A stretch of DNA of 64,000 bases, taken from positions 930,001 to 994,000 of the forward strand of contig NKJG01000001.1 of NCBI GenBank assembly GCA_002256395.1, in the 5' to 3' direction. The translations under genes and the position numbers were made by a program. Source of the stretch: Bacteroidetes bacterium B1(2017). GTDB lineage: Bacteria > Bacteroidota > Bacteroidia > UKL13-3. Each line of letters begins with the position of its first letter. Within the stretch, counting starts at the first letter, position 1. A model generated the notes under the pieces. That model saw nothing but the letters and a program-made list of their open reading frames with translations, was not told the origin of the DNA and did no database searches. Below are positions 9,435 through 18,479 of this stretch, one piece after another.

Positions 9435-10016
9435 TTAAAACGGAAAGCGCGCAATCATTAAAATTAAAGCAAGAATACTAGCCAAAGCAGAAAATACCAA
9501 AGCCACTTTATTTTGTGACCATTTAAAGGCTAGTACTAAGCCACTTTGCCAAAGAATTATTGCCGTCACAATAGCTATTTGGCCTATTTCTATGCCCACA
9601 TTAAAAGCAAATAAAGGAAACACAATACTTTCTTGCGCACCCAGCATAGAACGCAGCAAATACGAAAACCCTAAGCCATGTATCATCCCAAAGCCAGCTG
9701 TAAACGCATATTTAATAGCTAGCTTTTCGGCTCGGTGTGTACCTAAATAGAAAAGGGAGTAAAGTGCGGTGAGTAAAATGGTAAAAGGAATAAGAAACTC
9801 AATAATACTGCTATCTATTTTAACAAAGCCCAGCACACTAAGGGCCAGCGAAAGGCTATGGCCAAGGGTAAAAGCGGTGATTAACCAAAACAAAGGGCGC
9901 TTTTCTTTACATGAATAAGGCACGCATAATACTAGCAGAAAAAGTATATGATCATACGCATACCAATCTACAATATGGTTAAAGCCTGTTCCGAACCAAA
10001 GCAAGAAATCGTTCAT
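9435..10016 (-). CDS. HupE/UreJ-family membrane protein
   Basis: 193 residues from the ATG at 10016 (MNDFLLWFGTGFNHIVD); an ATG at 10067 is possible but would run across the divergent gene start. Six or so hydrophobic helices with conserved histidines (GFNHI, YDHILFLL, TLGHSLSLAL, GMIHGLGFS) match the HupE/UreJ family, in which such residues are thought to bind nickel or other metals for uptake. No hydrogenase or urease gene is present. In Bacteroidota this family often sits beside an M1 peptidase and a DUF6702-like protein, as here, so the transported ion and the link remain open. Stop and next start are 10 bp apart. Confidence 0.85.
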   Translation of the reverse strand: MNDFLLWFGTGFNHIVDWYAYDHILFLLVLCVPYSCKEKRPLFWLITAFTLGHSLSLALSVLGFVKIDSSIIEFLIPFTILLTALYSLFYLGTHRAEKLAIKYAFTAGFGMIHGLGFSYLLRSMLGAQESIVFPLFAFNVGIEIGQIAIVTAIILWQSGLVLAFKWSQNKVALVFSALASILALILMIARFPF

Positions 10017-10024
10017 GGTTTTAG

Positions 10025-10032
10025 TATATTTG
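10025..10032 (+). promoter_or_regulatory. Candidate -7 box with almost no leader
   Basis: TATATTTG, an exact TAnnTTTG match, ends five bases before the ATG at 10038. If used, transcription would start at or next to the start codon, giving a leaderless mRNA. No clear TTG -33 element is present. Confidence 0.35.
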
Positions 10033-10037
10033 AGCGG

Positions 10038-10553
10038 ATGCAAACTAAAAAAATATTTCTGAAACACCTGCTCTTATTTGTGGGAGTGGTGGCCACTTTA
10101 TCCTTTCATAAGGCCGCCCATCCTTTTTATTTAAGTGTAACAGAGATTAACATAAGCAGCAAAGACAAAACCCTAAAGCTTAGTTGCCGCCCCTTCTTAG
10201 ATGATTTACAACTAGCCCTGCATGCACAAAGCAAACAAGCCCTGAACCTAAGCATACAAAGCGAAGCCAATAAAAAACTAGTCGCCAATTATATTCAAGA
10301 ACACGTAAAATTAAAGCTAGATGGCAAAGCTTTTACACTCACCTGTCTTGGTTACGAGATAGAAGAAGAAGCACTTTGGTGCTACCTAGAAGCGCCCTTT
10401 AAAGCAGGCAGCAAAAGCCTAAGTATAGAAAACACCATTCTTTGCAGCAGCTTAGAAGGACAGGTTAATATTATTCATTGTATCTACAATGGCCAACGTC
10501 AGAGTACGAGATTGGCTTGCCCGGACGCTTTGGCGGCCTTTGAGTTGAAGTAG
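10038..10553 (+). CDS. DUF6702-like exported protein
   Basis: 171 residues from the ATG at 10038. The N-terminus is basic then hydrophobic (KKIFLKHLLLFVGVVATLS), consistent with export, and is followed by AHPFYLSVTEI, a segment I associate with the DUF6702 family of Bacteroidota. The body is β-rich, with CRPFLDDLQLAL and late cysteines. In this phylum it is found next to HupE-like transporters, and here it is divergent from one with 21 bp between starts. No enzyme motif is visible; a periplasmic partner of the transporter is a guess from context only. Confidence 0.7.
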   Translation: MQTKKIFLKHLLLFVGVVATLSFHKAAHPFYLSVTEINISSKDKTLKLSCRPFLDDLQLALHAQSKQALNLSIQSEANKKLVANYIQEHVKLKLDGKAFTLTCLGYEIEEEALWCYLEAPFKAGSKSLSIENTILCSSLEGQVNIIHCIYNGQRQSTRLACPDALAAFELK

Positions 10554-10554
10554 G

Positions 10555-10680
10555 TTCGACAGGCTCACCTACCTTATTAATCAGTGTCACCTACCTTTTT
10601 AATCAGGCTCACCTAACTAATGCTTAGTATACCCAGCTTTTGGGAGCAAGGTCCCTGAGCTCGTCGAAGGGAGTCCCTTT
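10555..10680. repeat. REP-like inverted repeat pair
   Basis: GTTCGACAGGCTCACCT near 10555 and TGAGCTCGTCGAAGGGA near 10657 are inverted copies of the REP core found in the M1 peptidase gene. The space between holds short direct repeats of TCACCTAC and AATCAG. Non-coding. Confidence 0.6.
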
Positions 10681-10705
10681 ACTTTACAAACACTCTGCTT
10701 AATAA

Positions 10706-11312
10706 TTAGGCAAGTACCTCTTTAATTTTAGGAGAGTACTCACTGTACTATAGGAGAGTGTACTTTGCAGTTAGGTAAGTAGGCAATGTATATTAGGAGA
10801 GTACTCATTGCACTATAGGAGAGTGTCTTTGCACAATAGGCGAGTACTCCTTGCACTATAGGAGAGTGTCTTTGCACAATAGGCGAGTACTCTTTGCACT
10901 ATAGGAGAGTGTCTTTGCACAATAGGCGAGTACTCATTGCACTATAGGAGAGTGTCTTTGTACAATAGGCAAGTGGGCAATGTATATATGGCGAGTACTC
11001 ATTGCACTATAGGTAAGTGTCTTTGCACAATAGGCAAGTGGGCAATGTATATATGGCGAGTACTCATTGCACTATAGGTAATTGTCTTTGCACAAAAGGT
11101 AAGTGGGCATTGTATATATGGCGAGTACTCATTGGACTATAGGAGAGTGTCTTTGCACAATAGGCAAGTAGGCAATGTATATTAGGAGAGTACTCATTGC
11201 ACTATAGGAGTGTGTCTTTGCACAATAGGTAAGTGGGCATTGTATATATGGCGAGTGTGCTTTGTATATTAGGAGAGTACTCATTGTAATACAGGTAGTG
11301 AACATTGTATAT
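10706..11312. repeat. Minisatellite, about 28 units of 21-23 bp with higher-order order
   Basis: Units follow TATAGGAGAGTGTCTTTGCAC / AATAGGCGAGTACTCATTGCAC / AATAGGCAAGTGGGCAATGTATA. By eye there are 28 consecutive units. In the 5' half two unit types alternate to give ~43-bp repeats; in the 3' half three types recur to give ~65-bp repeats. Many units carry the palindrome GAGTACTC. Since 43 and 65 are not multiples of three, no frame is kept and coding is unlikely. With the flanking repeats it fills the 955-bp gap between the DUF6702 and GxxExxY genes. Confidence 0.9.
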
Positions 11313-11348
11313 ATCACTCTTCCTTTTATTTTATCGAAGCAGCTTCAT

Positions 11349-11505
11349 GTGTGAGTGGTTTTTTTACCACAACGAACACAAAGGGAAGAACACAACGGAC
11401 ACAAAGCATTGCTGCGAGGTACCTTACAACTGCGCCGTTGTGCTCGTTGTGTGCTTCCTCCGTTGAGTTCGTTGTGGTTACTCTTACTTTTAATTATTGA
11501 TGCAT
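11349..11505. repeat. CACAACGGA foldback repeat, copy R1 (3' side of nuclease gene)
   Basis: Left arm: TTTTTTTACCACAACGAACACAAAG..., degenerate tandem 9-mers of the form CACAACGGA. Right arm: the reverse complement series ending CGTTGTGGTTACTCTTACTTTT and GATGCA. Together they form a long imperfect foldback of about 155 bp. Confidence 0.85.
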
Positions 11506-11508
11506 TTT

Positions 11509-11907
11509 CTAAAGAATACCGTTTATTACCCTTTTAATACCATCCTTTAGGAACACCACATTGAAGTTAATTAATAGGCCTAACTTGTAATCCATCAATT
11601 TTAAATAGGTTAAGGTTTGAGCCAAATGTATATCACTAATTTTATCCAAGGATTTTAGTTCAATGAGGAATTTATTATCTAAAACTAAATCGGCTCTATA
11701 CCCACATTCCAACTTAACTGTTTCGTAAATCAATGGTATCGGTTTTTCTTTTTCAACTTGAATACCCGTTTTACCAATTTCATAAAACAAACACTCCTTA
11801 TATACCGATTCAAGTAATCCAGGCCCAAGATCTTTATGCACCTTAAATGCGCAGTCCATCGTTATCCTGCATAGGTCGTTTTCTGTTAGAAAGGATGTGG
11901 TATACAT
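11509..11907 (-). CDS. GxxExxY protein (PD-(D/E)xK nuclease-like)
   Basis: 132 residues from the ATG at 11907, the usual length for the family; longer in-frame starts run into the flanking repeat. The name-giving motif is GLLESVY (Gly30, Glu33, Tyr36). The nuclease core is visible as YRADLVLDNKFLIELKS, giving Asp73 and Glu83-x-Lys85, followed by a QTLTYLKL helix with the QxxxY pattern of Cas4/λ-exonuclease-like PD-(D/E)xK enzymes (Pfam PDDEXK_3). The family is multi-copy in Bacteroidota and its function is not established. Here the gene is tightly bracketed by two copies of the CACAACGGA foldback repeat (R1 and R2), which suggests that gene and repeats belong together. Confidence 0.88.
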   Translation of the reverse strand: MYTTSFLTENDLCRITMDCAFKVHKDLGPGLLESVYKECLFYEIGKTGIQVEKEKPIPLIYETVKLECGYRADLVLDNKFLIELKSLDKISDIHLAQTLTYLKLMDYKLGLLINFNVVFLKDGIKRVINGIL

Positions 11908-12027
11908 AGGTTCTACTTTATTAAATATATTCCTATCAAATGTTAAACTAAATAAATTAGCACAAAAATCTTTTTCAACTTTTATCCAGTAAATAGGATT
12001 TGTTTCTTTTAATCGAAAAATAGGCAT

Positions 12028-12213
12028 GTGTGAATAGTTTTTTTACCACAACGGACACAACGGAGGAAGCACAACGAGCACAACGTTCTGATATAAGTTC
12101 CCTGACAACTGCGTCGTGGTGTCCGTTGTGTTCTTCTTTGCTAGCCGTAGCTTTAGCGAAGGTTAGCACTTTGTGTCCGTTGTGGTTACTCTTACTTTTC
12201 AATTGATGATGCA
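12028..12213. repeat. CACAACGGA foldback repeat, copy R2 (5' side of nuclease gene)
   Basis: Same plan as R1: GTGTGAATAG, a T run, ACCACAACGGACACAACGG..., a centre with CTTTGCTAGCCGTAGC, then GTCCGTTGTGGTTACTCTTAC and GATGCA. Nearly identical to R5 (16133-16318), including the central insert. Confidence 0.85.
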
Positions 12214-12366
12214 GTTTCTTGTGTGAGTAGTTGTCATTCTGAGTGAGTCGAAGGATACCAAAACGAGCACAACGGGCATAACGGCGAAGTTGTAAGGAAG
12301 AAAGGGAAAGAGAAACAGAAAGAGTTGCTTTTAACCCCCTAAAAGTGAATTCATCTGATTCCTTAA
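12214..12366. repeat. Repeat remnants between nuclease region and lipoprotein gene
   Basis: Holds a half REP-like motif (GTCATTCTGAGTGAGTCGAAGG, 12232-12253) followed by a short CACAACGGGCATAACGG stretch of the foldback family and a purine-rich run. No gene seen. Confidence 0.5.
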
Positions 12367-12954
12367 TTAAGGTAGTAATTGATACAGATTATTCTGGGAT
12401 TTAAATTCTAATACGCCAACTTTCTTCTTAACTACTAAATAGGCTCCATAGGTAGTGCTTATTTTAAATACACTATCATATATGTGTTGATTTATAGTGT
12501 ACTTTTTAATAAATATAGATTTTAAATCTCCTTGGGAATTAAAACCTGTACTTGCATCATTATAATAATCATACTTGTTTATTTCATATTTTAAATCAGG
12601 AATTCCTAAGATTCCAGTATTATAAAGAGTTATTTTAAAATACTCCTTGTCGTTGGCTTTCATTGTTAAACCTTGGCCTTCGTATTTGTATAAATCAGCA
12701 CAACCAGCTCCAGGCCGCGCATAATCATAAAAATAGCTTGAAATACCACTACTTGAATACACAAGAGTGTCAGTGCCATTTTTTAAAAACCTTACGCTAC
12801 ACGTATCACAATAGGGTAGAATCATTTCTTTATCGTACTGCGCTACAAAATAGGTATCGGTAAGGCCTGTTGGACATTTATGGCAGGAATGAAAAACAGG
12901 AAAGAGCCATGCTAAAAAAGCTATTTGGGTAAGAGGTTTTGAACGCCATTTCAT
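12367..12954 (-). CDS. Lipoprotein, PY-motif family (member 1)
   Basis: 195 residues from the ATG at 12954. The signal peptide ends in a lipobox-like FPVFHSC, so it is probably a lipid-anchored envelope protein. After this it has ILPYCDTCSVRFLKNGTDT, matching the pattern PY-x(3-5)-[LV]-x-F-x-[NK]-x(2)-TD shared with the proteins at 18677, 19320 and 34884. A mid-protein cysteine and a C-terminal GVLEFKSQNNLYQLL hairpin are also shared. It is rich in β-strand. No known domain is recognised. It stands alone in a repeat-rich region. Confidence 0.75.
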   Translation of the reverse strand: MKWRSKPLTQIAFLAWLFPVFHSCHKCPTGLTDTYFVAQYDKEMILPYCDTCSVRFLKNGTDTLVYSSSGISSYFYDYARPGAGCADLYKYEGQGLTMKANDKEYFKITLYNTGILGIPDLKYEINKYDYYNDASTGFNSQGDLKSIFIKKYTINQHIYDSVFKISTTYGAYLVVKKKVGVLEFKSQNNLYQLLP

Positions 12955-13011
12955 AAAATGCAAATTACTATTGTTTTAACGATAATAGCTCCCAAGTTTC
13001 TCCATTCTCAA

Positions 13012-13136
13012 ATTAAATTTTTATACAGCCTACTTTCTTATCAAAATAGGCAATATTGGGGGGTACATTCAGATTAACATGGGGTACCTTTTGTACTTTA
13101 TAATACGTTTTGTCAATACGCTTTAATGAATCCAAA
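13012..13136 (-). pseudogene. Possible gene fragment (C-terminal remnant)
   Basis: The minus strand is open for ~42 codons with protein-like content (segments TYYKVQKVPHVNLNVPPN and FDKKVGCIKI) ending in TAA, but with no start codon; a stop lies just upstream, and the frame differs from the upstream gene. It may be the tail of a decayed lipoprotein gene. Weak evidence. Confidence 0.3.
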
Positions 13137-13622
13137 TCAGTAATTTAAATGATCTACAAGCAAAACATATTTACATTGGTTTTCGCTTGAGCTCAGAAGT
13201 TCGTAGTCGTTTATATACCAGTATTTACCCAAAAGTCTGTGTTGATTCTTTTGATGCGAGGTGTTTTGAAATTCAGCATAATTTCTAACTTTTCCTTGTA
13301 AGACCACATTTCCTGAAAGGTCTTTGGGAAATGAATAGGTGTCATCGATTGGTTTTGCAATTACAAATGTGTGTTTACTAATCCAGAACTTTATCCAGGA
13401 ATGATTTTCCTTGTCACTATTTTTATTGCTTACAAATGCCTTTACAAAAACCTTGGCAAACATATTCGTGTCTGTATAGTTTGCAATTGCGGCAGGTGTA
13501 ACAACTATTGAGGAGTCTAATGGCTCAGTTATTTTCCCAATTATTTTATTGCGGTGCGTGCAATTAAAAGTAAAGAACAGCAGGATAATAAGAACTGAAA
13601 TTTTTTGTAGTGTTTTTACCAT
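13137..13622 (-). CDS. Hypothetical lipoprotein
   Basis: 161 residues from the ATG at 13622 (MVKTLQKISVLIILLFFTFNC), which places a Cys directly after the hydrophobic segment as in a lipoprotein signal. The rest is a small β-rich domain with KVFVKAFVSNKN, WIKFWISKHTFV and GKYWYINDYELL. I do not recognise the family. It is not clearly related to the PY-motif lipoproteins nearby. The gene follows foldback repeat R3, and a possible gene fragment lies immediately downstream in another frame, so a frameshifted longer gene cannot be excluded. Confidence 0.65.
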   Translation of the reverse strand: MVKTLQKISVLIILLFFTFNCTHRNKIIGKITEPLDSSIVVTPAAIANYTDTNMFAKVFVKAFVSNKNSDKENHSWIKFWISKHTFVIAKPIDDTYSFPKDLSGNVVLQGKVRNYAEFQNTSHQKNQHRLLGKYWYINDYELLSSSENQCKYVLLVDHLNY

Positions 13623-13670
13623 GGTTTCTTTTATAAAGTGTCTCCTGCTTAACAAAGGGGACTTTTACAG

Positions 13671-13820
13671 AATAGTTTTTTTACCACAACGAACACAACG
13701 GAGGAAGCACAACGGGCACAACGGCGCGGTTGTTAGGTACATCGCAACAGAGCTTTGTGTCCGTTGTGTTCTTCCCGTGGTGTCCGTTGTGGTTACTCTT
13801 CCTTTTCAATTATTGATGCA
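13671..13820. repeat. CACAACGGA foldback repeat, copy R3 (solo)
   Basis: AATAG plus T run plus ACCACAACGAACACAACGG, then inverted arm GTCCGTTGTGTTCTTCCCG and GTCCGTTGTGGTTACTC, ending in TATTGATGCA. No nuclease gene inside. It is followed by 45 bp that also follow copy R5, leading into the stop of the membrane-protein gene. Confidence 0.85.
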
Positions 13821-13865
13821 TTTTCATACATTAATACCCTGGCATTTTTCTAATCGCAAAGGGTT

Positions 13866-15035
13866 TTATTCACCTATATCACCCGACAAATATCCCTTTT
13901 TTCCAAATAAATAAAATCTATCGCCGAGGCTAAAAATTCCTGCGATATTGTCGGGTTCTAAATTATCTGTGAAAAAGTTTTCTTGCAATGGAATTTTAGT
14001 AACACTACTGATATCCTTTCTAAAGGTTCCAATATAGATTGTGTTTTTTTCATAGAGTGCTTTTTCATTTTCCTTACAGGTGCTTGGTGTTACTAGAGCA
14101 AATATCCGATCCTTTTTATCCCTTATGATTATCCTTTGGCTAGTTGGTCTATACAGCGTGGCCAATGCAAATCCATTTAATTCTTTATAGTTCAGTTTGC
14201 CTTTTCCATCCGAGATTTCCATGAAACAGTTTTGCCAAATTTCAAATGAGCCATTTATACACGATTTAGAATCACTTTTTACAACATAATAGGTTCCTCT
14301 TATTGTATCATGTTGGCCATAACTGTTCCTTAGTTCATTTAGAAAATATCTTTTCTCAACCTTCTCAATTATTTTATTCTTATTAGAAATCTCCCAAATA
14401 CTATCTTTACAAATAGCAAAATATCTTAAACTACACTCATAAGCACTGCACGCATAATTGTCTTTTTGCCAGCATAAATCTGGCTTCATCACAATTACTT
14501 TATTCAAATTTCCCTTCTTTTTACAATAATAATAGGCCGAATCTTTATCACTCCCAGTAACAAAATACCCCGTGTCATTCTGGGTATAACAGTATAGAAT
14601 ATCGGATTCATAATAGCTGAATAATTTTTTGATCTTTAAATTTCTGCCTTCTTCAATTTGACCCATTGTTTTAGATACAACTGAACTCTCTTTGATAAAT
14701 ACATTAAGTTTATTCGTTCCTATAATAGCAAAAGGAAGTAGCAGGATTAGGATATTAAGGATAACAAATTTCCTATTCTTCCAATGTTTATAGATATCTA
14801 TTAGCATCCTTATGGTCCACCAGAGCGCAACTGCAATGCATAATCCAATTCCTAAATATCCAACTGCCATTCCATCTCCCATACCTGCTGGAATACCCAC
14901 ATCTGAATATTGGTTCCCCGAAAATTTCTCCACTAAAAACCCTAATAGTACTGTAATTCCAAAAGCTATAAATAGGCCTAAAGGCAAACTAAAAAAGTTC
15001 CATACAAGACGCTTATTTAAATTTTTGGGTGGCAT
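13866..15035 (-). CDS. Hypothetical membrane protein with extracytoplasmic β-rich domain
   Basis: 389 residues. Three hydrophobic helices lie in the first ~125 residues (about 13-35, 57-77 and 90-108). The remaining ~265 residues are β-rich with many Tyr, Lys and Cys and repeating strands (for example YFAICKDSIWEIS, IYIGTFRKD, FYLFGKKGYLSGD) that suggest a β-propeller-like periplasmic domain. I do not recognise the family. Its last ~25 codons recur as a broken copy at 16364-16445, so a paralogue once existed nearby. It has no obvious operon partners. Confidence 0.7.
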   Translation of the reverse strand: MPPKNLNKRLVWNFFSLPLGLFIAFGITVLLGFLVEKFSGNQYSDVGIPAGMGDGMAVGYLGIGLCIAVALWWTIRMLIDIYKHWKNRKFVILNILILLLPFAIIGTNKLNVFIKESSVVSKTMGQIEEGRNLKIKKLFSYYESDILYCYTQNDTGYFVTGSDKDSAYYYCKKKGNLNKVIVMKPDLCWQKDNYACSAYECSLRYFAICKDSIWEISNKNKIIEKVEKRYFLNELRNSYGQHDTIRGTYYVVKSDSKSCINGSFEIWQNCFMEISDGKGKLNYKELNGFALATLYRPTSQRIIIRDKKDRIFALVTPSTCKENEKALYEKNTIYIGTFRKDISSVTKIPLQENFFTDNLEPDNIAGIFSLGDRFYLFGKKGYLSGDIGE

Positions 15036-15216
15036 ATTTATAGTTTAAATTTCTTTGAGTTTGTTTGAATCCAGGGCTACAATTTAATAGTTTATCTATG
15101 AGTTATGAATTGGGGAAGCAAGATGGTTTCTCCATCCAGCAAAGTACACATAATATTAAATAGAATCAGTTGATCTTTGCGTCATTGAAAATTATAATCG
15201 AACCAACAAATAACTA
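15036..15216. other. Intergenic, nothing recognised
   Basis: 181 bp of AT-rich DNA between two minus-strand genes. I see no repeat, hairpin or convincing promoter box. Confidence 0.6.
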
Positions 15217-15711
15217 TTACTTATATAAAATCCAAAAGTTTGGGTGTTTAGTTTGTGTTGCAACTCTTCGATTTAAAGTAATTTGAACAGGTAAAAAATC
15301 ATACCCTTCCCACCCTTTAGGATTTGGAGCAGTTTTAAAATCCACAAACAAAGTGTCGGGAATTGAAACTTTATTGTAGAATAACAACGAAGTCTTAATT
15401 TTTTGAACTGCCGAATATTCAATTAATGAACCACACGAAATATATGGACCATTAATTTCTGGCCAAACAGCTAAATGTCCTTGAGTTGGTTTTTTACTAT
15501 CGGGTTGTGGGAAAACTAAGGATATGCTATCATTAATCGATAAAAAAAGACTACTGTCATTTGAGTTATAAATTACCAAATTTAAGTCGGGTGCAGGCGG
15601 GATGTCATTTATATGTCCATTATTAGACTTCCTGCAGGATTCGAAACTAAATAACAGTAACAAAAAAACTATTATATTATTAGTATATGTCAACAACCTT
15701 CTCTTTTTCAT
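15217..15711 (-). CDS. Hypothetical lipoprotein
   Basis: 164 residues. The N-terminus KKRRLLTYTNN plus a hydrophobic run and SFESC gives a lipoprotein signal with the modified Cys followed by charged and Asn-rich linker residues. The mature part is β-rich (LNLVIYNSNDSSLFLSIND, GPYISCGSLIEY, LPVQITLNRRV). I do not recognise the domain. The gene stands alone between the membrane-protein gene and the toxin-antitoxin remnant. Confidence 0.65.
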   Translation of the reverse strand: MKKRRLLTYTNNIIVFLLLLFSFESCRKSNNGHINDIPPAPDLNLVIYNSNDSSLFLSINDSISLVFPQPDSKKPTQGHLAVWPEINGPYISCGSLIEYSAVQKIKTSLLFYNKVSIPDTLFVDFKTAPNPKGWEGYDFLPVQITLNRRVATQTKHPNFWILYK

Positions 15712-15856
15712 TTTGATAATTACTATTAGTTTGTATCGGTAAACTGTATGGAGCTTGCTACATACTCTCTTATTTGCCTGCGATTAATTTTGTTGAATTG
15801 ATATTACAACTTAACAAAACAGTTAATATCATTGTGATTGAAAATCTAATCATACT

Positions 15857-15991
15857 TCAATGTGCCGTAACAATGGTTTTATCCAATAGGCCAATTTTAC
15901 TAATTAGTATTAAGGATGGTTTTTTTTGCCTATTTGTTCCATTAGGATTAATTACGTTTAAAATTCTTTCTATAATTAATTGCCTTGTCAT
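15857..15991 (-). pseudogene. Toxin-antitoxin remnant: antitoxin N-terminus fused in frame to MazF-type C-terminus
   Basis: A 44-codon frame from ATG 15991 to TGA 15857. Residues 1-15 (MTRQLIIERILNVIN) match the start of the antitoxin at 18111-18341 (MSRQSIIERILNAIN). From residue 15 on, NPNGTNRQKKPSLI and SKIGLLDKTIV match the C-terminal part of the toxin at 17801-18118 (NPNSTNRLKNPSLI). Similarity to the intact locus continues on both sides (about 15790-16030), including the leader GATAGTATTTGTTAAACG. In the intact locus GATTAATTG occurs at both breakpoints (17956-17964 and 18296-18304), so a ~340-bp deletion between short direct repeats explains the fusion. Confidence 0.8.
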
Positions 15992-16054
15992 AGGATAGTA
16001 TTTGTTAAACGAATATAAAGCTTTTCTAAGGCTAATGTTTGTACAGAATACAAT

Positions 16055-16125
16055 GCACCGTGGTGTCCGTTGTGTTCTTCCCTTTGTGTCCGTTGTGGTT
16101 ACTCTTACTTTTAATTATAGATGCA
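16055..16125. repeat. CACAACGGA foldback repeat, copy R4 (right half only)
   Basis: Only the right arm remains: GTGTCCGTTGTGTTCTTCCC, GTCCGTTGTGGTTACTCTTAC and ATAGATGCA. It abuts copy R5 head to tail. Confidence 0.75.
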
Positions 16126-16132
16126 GCTTCTT

Positions 16133-16318
16133 GTGTGAGTAGTTTTTTTACCACAACGAACACAACGGAGGAAGCACAACGAGCACAACGTTCTGATATA
16201 AGTTCCCTGACAACTGCGTCGTGGTGTCCGTTGTGTTCTTCTTTGCTAGCCGTAGCTTTAGCGAAGGTTAGCACTTTGCGCCCGTTGTGGTTACTCTTAC
16301 TTTTCAATTATTGATGCA
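16133..16318. repeat. CACAACGGA foldback repeat, copy R5 (solo)
   Basis: Full foldback: GTGTGAGTAG plus T run plus ACCACAACGAACACAACGG..., centre with CTTTGCTAGCCGTAGC, right arm CGTTGTGGTTACTCTTAC, TATTGATGCA. Almost identical to R2 over its whole length. Confidence 0.85.
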
Positions 16319-16363
16319 TTTTCATACATTAACACCCTGGCATTTTACTAAGCGTAATGGGTT

Positions 16364-16445
16364 TTATTTACTCATATCACCCGACAAATATCCCTTTTTT
16401 TCAAATAGATAAAATCTATCGCCGAGTCAAAAAATTCTTGTTAGG
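16364..16445 (-). pseudogene. Broken copy of the 3' end of the membrane-protein gene
   Basis: On the minus strand LGDRFYLFEKKGYLSGD followed by a stop matches the end of the protein encoded at 13866-15035 (LGDRFYLFGKKGYLSGD). The codon before this block is TGA where the intact gene has AGC, so it is not functional. Similarity continues downstream through 16319-16363 into foldback repeat R5, exactly as the intact gene abuts R3. Confidence 0.75.
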
Positions 16446-16487
16446 CAAAAGATTTCACTAATAAATAGGAGCACCGCTTTATTCATT

Positions 16488-16679
16488 TTGGTAGTATTTA
16501 TAGATAGTCAAGAATATAGCAGGGTAAATATTACAAAAATTGATTTAACCTATAAGAATAAAAAAACAGATTACTTTCCTTTAATTGACCAAGAGAGAAT
16601 TCAATTTATTTGGAATGACAGAAATAGACATGACTTTTCCAATACAATGAATGAAAGAAAAATAATTAATCGTAAATAA
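16488..16679 (+). CDS. Small ORF of doubtful status
   Basis: 63 codons with a TTG start and no ATG; the frame is open a further ~20 codons upstream and ends at TAA 16677-16679. The content (VFIDSQEYSRVNITKIDLTY, FPLIDQERIQFIWNDRN) is protein-like, with a hydrophobic run just before it (STALFILVVFI). It may be the tail of a degraded lipoprotein or membrane-protein gene rather than a living gene. No ribosome binding site or relative was recognised. Confidence 0.25.
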   Translation: MVVFIDSQEYSRVNITKIDLTYKNKKTDYFPLIDQERIQFIWNDRNRHDFSNTMNERKIINRK

Positions 16680-16775
16680 GGAAAACTACTTTCTATTTAT
16701 TGAGAATATATTTTCTTGTAATTGGTGTATTATTTTTTGAATCACAAAACTCGTCCCTGTAATTTTGTTTTCCTA

Positions 16776-17489
16776 CTAAGGCATTATTAATGGTCCAAAT
16801 TTTATTAACCATAAATAATATCCTAGGATTCCACCGACAAGACCCGAAATTAAAAAAGTTAGTAAAATTGCCTTTGGTAGTAATCGCAAAACGATAACAA
16901 GAACGCCAATTCCAATAAGTCCAGTGATAATTTGAATAGTCCAAATATTGATATCTAAATAGTTGGCAAGTCGCATTTCGTCTCCCCTTTGAGAAGGTTT
17001 TCCTGAAATTAATAATGACATTACAGCCATAAAAAGATTTGCAACTTGCCTTAACCAGAATAATGAAATAAAAATGGTGGCCCATGCAATTAAATGAACC
17101 TTTTGCGGCGTGATATATTTTTTTCTAAAAACAAATAAAAGTAATAACCCAATAGTACCAGTAAGTATTGTCTCTAAAGGACCTGCAAGTATTATCCAAA
17201 AAGTGTCAGTTTCATATTTTCGAACTTTTTCAAGATACTCTTCCTTACCTGGAAAGTCTGTATTGTTTAGTATTTCGTTTTCGTATTTTTCATATGTATC
17301 ACTTAGATATTTATTAAAGTCATTGTCCCAGTACGACGAACTTTGATAATTTATACTTGCATTATACCCCAAAATTTTTGAAATAGAATAATGACCCAGT
17401 TCGTGAGTTAAAGTTCCAACAACAGTCATAAGGATGAATGTAATTATTAGAAAAATTGAACGTTTAAAATCAAATTTTAGGTATTCCAT
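16776..17489 (-). CDS. Membrane zinc metalloprotease-like protein (HELGH)
   Basis: 237 residues from the ATG at 17489; an ATG at 17540 is less likely. The first helix carries the zincin motif THELGHY (His29, Glu30, His33), and AGPLETILTG lies in a later helix, resembling the arrangement in site-2-protease-like (M50) and related membrane peptidases, where a second helix offers the third ligand. About five hydrophobic helices are visible, with an 80-residue loop after the HELGH helix. The usual NPDG motif of M50 enzymes is missing, so this may be a divergent or different membrane zincin. No substrate gene is adjacent. The base composition is very AT-rich, fitting an accessory gene. Confidence 0.6.
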   Translation of the reverse strand: MEYLKFDFKRSIFLIITFILMTVVGTLTHELGHYSISKILGYNASINYQSSSYWDNDFNKYLSDTYEKYENEILNNTDFPGKEEYLEKVRKYETDTFWIILAGPLETILTGTIGLLLLFVFRKKYITPQKVHLIAWATIFISLFWLRQVANLFMAVMSLLISGKPSQRGDEMRLANYLDINIWTIQIITGLIGIGVLVIVLRLLPKAILLTFLISGLVGGILGYYLWLIKFGPLIMP

Positions 17490-17800: not shown

Positions 17801-18118
17801 TTATAAATTGAACAGAGTCCTTAAATTACTATTTATTATAGAAATTTCATTATTAGAAATTTTGCCAAGCAGTCCTTTAACAATTGTTTTATCTAATGTG
17901 GCAATTTTACTAATTCGAATTAGGGAGGGGTTTTTTAGCCTATTCGTGCTATTAGGATTAATTGGAATATCTAATAGTTCTTGTCGTTGGATTTGTGTAG
18001 TAATAAAACAAACAGTAAGATCCAAGGTAGACTCAGCAAGGATAATTGCAGGCCGCAACTTACTTCCCGTTAAATCAGTAAAAGGGAAATTAATTAAAAC
18101 AATATCCCCCTTAGCCAT
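17801..18118 (-). CDS. MazF/PemK-type toxin
   Basis: 105 residues. The N-terminus MAKGDIVLINFPFTDLTGSK followed by LRPAIIL is the signature of the MazF/PemK endoribonuclease fold (β1-loop-β2 with the GDIV and RPAI motifs). Such toxins cut mRNA or tRNA when freed from their antitoxin. It overlaps the antitoxin gene by 8 bp (antitoxin AATGGCTAA, toxin ATGGCTAAG), the standard arrangement of a type II module. A decayed second copy lies at 15790-16030, so the module has been duplicated or moved here before. Confidence 0.85.
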   Translation of the reverse strand: MAKGDIVLINFPFTDLTGSKLRPAIILAESTLDLTVCFITTQIQRQELLDIPINPNSTNRLKNPSLIRISKIATLDKTIVKGLLGKISNNEISIINSNLRTLFNL

Positions 18119-18341
18119 TATATACTTCTTTTAAATCCTCAATGGAGTAAATTTCCTCTTCTTGGTTTAGGAAATCAAAAGTAGTTGCTTCAGCGCTCAA
18201 TTTCTTAATCCCATTAAGTAGTGTGGTTTCTTCATAACGTTTAAATACGAAATCAGCAAAATCAGAAATTTCTTCAGCCTTTTCATCAGGTAGCTGATTA
18301 ATTGCGTTTAAAATTCTTTCTATAATTGATTGCCTTGACAT
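18111..18341 (-). CDS. Antitoxin of the MazF/PemK-type pair
   Basis: 76 residues from the ATG at 18341 (MSRQSIIERILNAINQL); a longer in-frame start at 18386 is less likely because the decayed copy of the locus has its ATG at the corresponding position. The first half is helical and contains LPDEKAEEISDFADFVFKRYEE, a pattern seen in short DUF2281/VapB-like antitoxins; the acidic C-terminal tail (NQEEEIYSIEDLKEVY) is the expected toxin-binding segment. It precedes and overlaps the toxin gene and probably autoregulates the pair. Confidence 0.8.
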   Translation of the reverse strand: MSRQSIIERILNAINQLPDEKAEEISDFADFVFKRYEETTLLNGIKKLSAEATTFDFLNQEEEIYSIEDLKEVYNG

Positions 18342-18479
18342 AGGATAGTATTTGTTTAACGAATATAAAGCTTTTCTAAAAAACATTAGCGGATATATGT
18401 GAAATATTTAATAAAAATATGGTCCAATCTTTTTAAAGAATAAACCTTTAAATTGCGTTGGTTCAGGGAAGCTTTAAAG

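Follow-up and report, generated by a model that had tools for sequence, protein, structure and literature searches.

In RAYT/REP systems, as described in one account (PMC2817692), a single small gene lies between two inverted palindromic repeats. Protein and repeats are said to coevolve, solo copies of the repeat are found elsewhere, and in some species the repeats accumulate locally near the gene. The 23S rRNA IVS that carries an S23/IVP ORF is presented (PMC4990558) as a short ORF within terminal inverted repeats whose host product tolerates the split, and is there called selfish. Here we analyse a window of 64,000 nucleotides from Bacteroidetes bacterium B1(2017) (contig NKJG01000001.1, positions 930,001 to 994,000), in which a GxxExxY nuclease gene is flanked by palindromic repeats. 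A further point of comparison is offered by PD-(D/E)xK homing endonucleases, small nuclease genes in otherwise non-coding inserts, with occupied and empty alleles. In the openly available journal papers searched, no role was given for GxxExxY genes, GxxExxY was named only in other contexts, nothing linked the nuclease to palindromes, and box-array palindromes were left unexplained, the repeat strings occurring only in unrelated papers. We propose that the window probably holds a member of a widespread selfish unit, in which the gene of a minimal QxxxY-type PD-(D/E)xK nuclease is nested in or between element-specific palindromes of helically spaced boxes.

The nuclease gene and palindromes of the window

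The gene lies in an open frame of 172 aa (11509-12027, minus strand) that extends 5′ of the likely coding part (Table 1). The internal Met at 11907 is likely the start codon, and the residue numbers D73, E83, K85, Q97 and Y101 are counted from it. Residues 51-168 of the 172-aa frame form the family domain, with matches to PF13366 (E 5.6e-39; 133.6 bits against a curated cut-off of 22) and TIGR04256 (E 7.4e-40; 135.9 against 35). PF13366 was the only Pfam match of the protein, PF01797 (Y1 transposase) and PF05635 being absent. The nuclease motifs, which a first-pass annotation of this DNA had described as intact-looking, are indeed all kept (D73, E83-x-K85 and Q97xxxY101), and G30, E33, Y36, D73, E83, K85, Q97 and Y101 are invariant among 37 aligned sequences. 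Judged by its sequence, the window gene is an intact GxxExxY/PDDEXK_3 nuclease; it is one of three GxxExxY genes in the source genome.

The AlphaFold2 model of the protein (mean pLDDT 92.5, pTM 0.86) is mixed alpha/beta with PD-(D/E)xK matches. The best of these is Cas4 (4r5q; E 5.7e-3, prob 1.00, TMq 0.48), and lambda exonuclease is among the further ones (6m9k; 1avq_A, E 0.10); the fold search with this model gave no match at E <= 0.001, and PDB chains gave no sequence match to profile A1 up to E 1. A reading as a defence gene was rejected, PADLOC giving just a weak Cas4 profile match (E 0.022). The match in PHROGs (E 0.06) is to an entry of unknown function.

Table 1. Nuclease gene and repeat copies in the window (positions are those of the window)
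Feature	Position	Strand	Evidence or remark
Palindrome R1 with shared flanks (core 11366-11478), past the gene's 3′ end	11349..11506		fold z -7.0
Likely coding part of the GxxExxY / PDDEXK_3 nuclease gene (132 aa + stop)	11509..11907	-	profile matches, invariant residues, AlphaFold2 model
Palindrome R2 with shared flanks (core 12045-12186), past the gene's 5′ end	12028..12214		fold z -6.6
Short box-array piece adjoining R2	12257..12283	+	repeat family D3; match at C137:942266-942297
Solo palindrome R3 (core 13683-13797)	13671..13825		fold z -6.7
Half copy R4, consisting of the right arm plus its flank	16055..16130		repeat comparison
Solo palindrome R5 (core 16150-16291), closely resembling R2	16133..16320		fold z -3.7

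The repeats on either side of the gene fold back, as had been noted. All four full copies (R1, R2, R3 and R5) fold as DNA 3.7-7.0 s.d. better than their dinucleotide shuffles, compared with +0.3 and +0.1 for two control stretches in the same test. The gene stop is 30 bp from the R1 core and the likely start about 137 bp from the R2 core; the distances annotated earlier (3 bp from R1 and about 120 bp from R2) agree if the shared flanks count as repeat. The arms had been described as degenerate tandem 9-mers. In the left arm of R2, R3 and R5 these are four CACAACG boxes spaced 9/14/9. Three solo copies had also been listed: those at 13671 and 16133 are the full palindromes R3 and R5, whereas the one at 16055 is the half copy R4. 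We saw no recognisable gene remnant in the window's own solo copies. The arrangement of the window, a gene between two whole palindromes, recurs at locus L032 and departs from the usual layout, in which the gene lies inside one inverted pair of arms.

In the source genome, 17 BLAST pieces of the repeat fall at eleven places. Five of these places lie beyond the window (C113:165 kb, C113:523.7 kb, C113:524.3 kb, C9:106 kb and C9:336 kb), and the copy number is low, unlike that of REPs. A known RNA family was rejected as the source of the repeat, Rfam giving no match up to E 0.5 over positions 10000-17000. Some solo copies adjoin other repeats. Just before R1, the region 10734-11317 contains a 65-bp tandem array (10734-11256; 8.1 copies, TRF), and in L023 (about 1800-2100) a solo copy has a similar-looking array beside it. 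Several palindrome copies are directly adjoined by a GTCATTCTGAGTGAGTCGAAGGA-like repeat (at about 12225-12258 in the window, about 1690-1715 in L021 and about 2160-2190 in L023); we take it to be a common REP-like intergenic repeat, with which palindrome copies may form chimeras. Toxin-like frames were noticed as well: by family resemblance, window positions 17801-18386 (minus strand) presumably hold a MazF/PemK-like 105-aa frame with a 91-aa partner, and what we take to be a RelE/ParE-like 98-aa frame with a 71-aa partner adjoins a solo copy on C113 (L021 2349-2871, minus strand).

Inverted box arrays around GxxExxY genes in other genomes

For each gene, we compared the 250 bp upstream with the reverse complement of the 250 bp downstream, assuming no repeat sequence and taking a score >= 14 as positive. 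The first sample comprised the window gene, 32 genes from relatives and its own genome, and 78 of 80 named loci (the best 80 of 572), that is, 111 of 113 genes, two having been dropped for short flanks. Own flank pairs were positive in 73/111 genes, as against 3/464 shifted positions, 112/1319 mismatched gene pairs and 1/555 shuffles. In a fuller relative set, made up of the 131 better-scoring relative matches among those listed and the three own-genome genes (101 of these genes being new, from 100 fetched stretches), 90 of the 134 genes lie inside an inverted array pair and 44 have no clear one. Near-identical loci remain in the samples (L036, L041 and L063). Control genes from the same genomes scored 0/30 (GlcD) and 3/30 (the N part of MetH, where some adjoin units). 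A chance or low-complexity artefact is ruled out by the shuffles, shifted positions and control genes. Among named loci assigned to phyla other than Bacteroidota, 9 of the 13 with usable flanks were positive as well. Direct rather than inverted flank similarity reached the same score in 36/111 genes, so tandem arrangements are common too.

The pairing of GxxExxY genes with inverted arrays is thus a general tendency. The first-pass annotation had named, as an outcome that would speak against its proposal, an absence of flanking repeats around most homologues; the majority of those examined are flanked. One of the loci from other phyla, L081 (CALPLL020000220.1), is labelled as a Rhizobium MAG and has a Flavobacterium-type GxxExxY protein and unit; the contig is probably misbinned.

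GxxExxY genes were found in 104 of 147 relative genomes. A strict two-box pattern gave 126 matches in the 147 genomes, against 17 for the reversed pattern, and occurred in 39 of the 104 genomes that have the gene, compared with 2 of the 43 that lack it (Fisher 1.6e-5, a value that ignores kinship and genome size). The repeats are therefore not equally common in genomes that lack the gene, the second outcome that had been set against the proposal. Read by eye, the pattern adjoins a GxxExxY gene in ten genomes among the matches listed, and the matches in G110 (six, in a genome where no GxxExxY gene was found) and in G132 (6 of 10 read) mostly have a single-arm look, while one in G119 lies in GC-rich sequence and is chance-like. 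G132, which has one GxxExxY match (E 3.3e-28), carries a dispersed family (L361-L366) whose members start from one CACAGAGAA arm and continue into a common body that is not an obvious palindrome.

The arms are rows of boxes of the form C[AG]C[AGT][AG][AC]G (CRCARAG-like). Across 214 genes, the 100 bp upstream hold 262 forward boxes versus 53 reverse, and the first 50 bp downstream 251 reverse versus 43 forward, with about 10 boxes per 50-bp bin far from the gene. Boxes on the same strand are preferentially spaced 9, 21 and 30-31 bp apart, distances close to one, two and three turns of the helix. A TTTWAC lead stands ahead of the first box (T in 149/193 at -4, A in 147/193 at -2), and the outer end of the unit is TTTWAC-CRCARAG. 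At the GlcD-DPP4 locus, occupied by a gene in G019, G025, G026, G028, G037 and G038, the sequence of G019 and that of the gene-free G032, of the same genus, are alike up to ATATTGCATGATTCAAATATAAA and diverge exactly at the first box, so the left end of the unit is the start of the arm. No target-site duplication was seen in this one within-genus filled/empty comparison, in which the left junction could be aligned and the right could not. Read by eye, the DPP4 gene at the GlcD-DPP4 locus (L195-L199 and L220) seems to begin inside the unit and to take the hydrophobic core of its signal peptide from the right arm; repeat DNA would here have been exapted into a secretion signal.

The box itself differs between elements, and the sequence CACAACGGA, by which the foldback had been annotated earlier, turned out to be only this element's version. 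The arms are private to each element. In the 85/111 genes with two or more boxes per side, 5′ and 3′ box types were concordant in 64%, versus 16% when permuted (never >33%). Of 214 loci, 121 carried at least two boxes on each side, including 66 from relatives; the cosine between a gene's own 5′ and 3′ arms was 0.71 (relative set, 66 genes), versus 0.13 between elements of the same genome (44 ordered pairs) and 0.18 between other genomes. A host-wide repeat merely lying near the gene is ruled out by this same-genome comparison. Between genomes, boxes are more alike the closer the proteins are, the similarity being 0.05 at <40% protein identity and climbing through 0.17, 0.21 and 0.27 to 0.40 (70-80%), 0.69 (80-90%) and 0.87 (>90%); the arms evolve more quickly than the protein, but the two arms of an element do so in concert. 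When mapped on a tree of 108 proteins (95 labelled, near-copies and stop-bearing rows having been dropped), box tails required 37 changes versus 47.6 when shuffled, a value as low in 0/200 shuffles; this signal is real but modest, the tree being poorly resolved (57/105 inner branches open) and near-copies adding to it. No recent transposition was seen: where two genes with boxes share a genome (41 pairs), protein identity is <60% in 39 cases, which makes movement within a genome rare or old.

Gene-free sites and shared slots

In Flavobacterium, the gap between hemW and a cyclase gene holds a GxxExxY gene between arms in many species. We collected gene-free sites at this place where a two-piece match showed no gene. 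These number 20 rather than 21, since L404 and L411 are one place; L383, L393 and L403 were unreadable. Two or more boxes each way are present at 15 of the 20 sites, some of the CGCAAAG/CACAAAG kind and others of a different CGCTGAT kind, and one site is a near-clean scar of 21 bp. These box counts replaced a self-alignment palindrome score (6/21 rows at or above the shuffle maximum), which proved too weak a measure, and they were chosen after the sequences had been seen, so at these sites they are descriptive only. Gene-free palindromes thus occupy the same orthologous place as gene-bearing units. A static palindrome losing its gene would equally yield gene-free sites, and a tree of hemW and the cyclase, with 33/47 inner branches open, does not separate gain from loss. 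The 32 gene rows at the site (30 distinct, two pairs being the same gene) are 69-98% identical apart from duplicates, and their distances track those of the flanks (Mantel r 0.40, higher than in any of 2000 permutations), as expected if descent was mostly vertical.

Truncated or internally deleted gene pieces stand in tandem beside an intact gene at L041, L032 and L261. At L041 (G059), 104-bp tandem units fuse the first codons (MKTNIYTEN) to the last at a shared GAGTTATT; at L032 (G135) and L261 (G082), tandem copies with the gene start alternate with arrays. Because the short copies at L041 keep both gene ends, at least some gene-free copies arise by loss. Together with the hemW-cyclase sites, they bear out the earlier suggestion that solo repeats can be gene-free forms of the unit.

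That sister species have palindromes with no gene at the same site is also what one would expect if the palindromes were older and separately kept, and a homing endonuclease cut the gene-free palindrome at its loop, repair from a gene-bearing copy then installing the gene. The gene does occupy the loop of an inverted pair, and the arms would be natural halves of a split target. Resident palindromes, however, predict arms shared within a genome, whereas arm type is specific to the element; the Mantel agreement at hemW fits mostly vertical descent, and the L041 copies point to loss in at least some cases. We consider homing of this kind unlikely. The same gene-free sites bear on a reading of the boxes as operators, autoregulatory sites of the nuclease or of a toxin-like gene with no mobility involved. 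Boxes near the start and stop codons, helically spaced, would suit an operator, but it would need neither gene-free palindromes at this and other sites, nor tandem truncated copies, nor 3′ arrays in inverted order, and we give this reading very little credence.

The selfish unit that we favour instead has a counterpart in another gene family. Genes of PF05635 (23S_rRNA_IVP) lie inside inverted arrays in 21 of the top 30 loci, versus 21/870 mismatched pairs and 0/112 shifted positions. Their arms have a strict 7-bp period (identity 0.72-0.75 at lags 7, 14 and 21). In the IVP loci L135-L164 and in the source genome's own (C137:723206-723523), the arms are element-specific and the genes often sit in a split of metH. 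In many relatives metH is one frame of ~1200 codons, and in others it is split after ~340. By coordinates, the gap holds a co-directional GxxExxY gene in at least seven genomes (G022, G045, G053, G061, G063, G071 and G073), an eighth case having been found by sequence (G011, L048), and an IVP gene in at least 22, including the source genome at C137:723206. None of these 30 genomes has a metH N-part frame >400 codons among the matches listed. GxxExxY and IVP units therefore use the same metH slot.

A slot within a split gene, shared by both families, would also suit a unit acting at the level of RNA, with arms that work in the transcript like those of the 23S rRNA IVS, the stem being removed by RNase III, which would make the unit tolerable within operons and genes, and the nuclease serving another purpose. 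IVS are indeed ORFs within inverted repeats (PMC4990558). Neighbours of GxxExxY genes are co-directional in 66/75 cases upstream and 61/72 downstream, as such a unit would have it. Strong co-direction is nevertheless ruled out by other neighbouring frame pairs in the same loci, 190/258 of which are co-directional, so the excess at the units is mild and we weight the RNA-level reading slightly lower. It is also at odds with boxes ~10.5 bp apart, which point to a DNA-binding face, with gene-free copies elsewhere in the genome, and with an enzyme core that weakly resembles nucleases acting on DNA, such as Cas4 and lambda exonuclease. We regard it as decidedly unlikely.

The flank test was also positive for 17 of 28 Y1/RAYT genes (from the top 30 loci), versus 3/108 shifted positions, and such genes are present in 79/98 genomes. 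Could another transposase, then, move the palindromes, with the nuclease gene as cargo or a chance capture? The abundance of Y1/RAYT genes and the solo copies that adjoin other repeats would allow it. The flanks of Y1 and IVP genes, however, differ in sequence from GxxExxY arms, box type tracks the GxxExxY protein, and the pairing of gene and array is present in several phyla, all of which makes a passenger nuclease highly improbable.

A proposed nuclease-palindrome unit and its relatives

By analogy, we read the proposed selfish unit as working like RAYT/REP, but with a PD-(D/E)xK enzyme. We infer both an action of the nuclease on its own arms and a mobility of the unit. In this proposal, an oligomer of the nuclease would recognise the boxes of its own arms and cut or resect an extruded hairpin or cruciform; an end-processing action is proposed since its nearest folds, weakly matched, are of the end-processing kind. 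Template-switching repair between the arms would keep them alike, and the same repair could copy the unit in tandem and strip out the gene, leaving solo palindromes, with a unit occasionally being placed elsewhere. Units might persist in intergenic gaps and where a gene such as metH is split, since at these places they would do little harm and read-through would be possible.

A broader idea, which we hold only tentatively, is that GxxExxY units (9/21/30 bp) and four-helix IVP units (7 bp) together form an undescribed class of palindrome-nested selfish genes. Their private, self-matching arms would diversify with the protein and be kept alike by nuclease-driven, hairpin-templated conversion; they would be rivals for safe slots, the metH split being one, and would account for scattered gene-free palindromes in environmental bacteria.

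The link proposed here would give the repeats a cognate protein and the nuclease a cognate DNA, so that both can be tested by one binding and cleavage assay. It would also bring a second class of enzyme into the RAYT/REP scheme and suggest that IVS-type ORFs belong to a guild wider than rRNA. The units further amount to a naturally occurring collection of proteins matched with boxes, which might allow a recognition code to be deciphered.

The RAYT/REP-like system suggested by the first-pass annotation is partly upheld: the pairing, the layout of gene and repeats, and the gene-free forms stand; CACAACGGA, however, is one version of a box that varies between elements, the gene usually lies inside one inverted pair of arms, and the copy number is low. 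As in RAYT/REP, the GxxExxY gene lies between inverted palindromic repeats whose boxes coevolve with the protein, if modestly on the tree. The enzyme, in contrast, has a PD-(D/E)xK fold where RAYT is a Y1 transposase (PF01797), the arms are multi-box arrays with a TTTWAC lead where a REP is a short GTAG-headed hairpin, and the cognate repeat has few copies per genome.

With the IVS the units share an ORF within complementary termini. However, the S23/IVP protein (PF05635) is a four-helix bundle unrelated to the GxxExxY protein, IVP arms have a strict 7-bp period instead of 9/21/30, and the window unit sits among protein frames, whereas the IVS lies in 23S rRNA. MITEs and other transposons with TIRs resemble the units in their inverted termini and in the short copies that internal deletion leaves (L041; gene starts in L032 and L261), but the GxxExxY unit is without a DDE transposase, and its arms vary between elements while matching within one. 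Like homing endonucleases, it comprises a small nuclease gene with gene-bearing and gene-free sites, although no intron or intein was recognised and the unit's arms are its own repeats. The best fold matches, weak as they are, are the QxxxY enzymes Cas4 and lambda exonuclease, of the PD-(D/E)xK kind, the window protein being about half their size. The GxxExxY unit thus stands beside both of its closest described counterparts, lacking one defining feature of each: the Y1 domain of RAYT/REP and the S23 ORF of the IVS.
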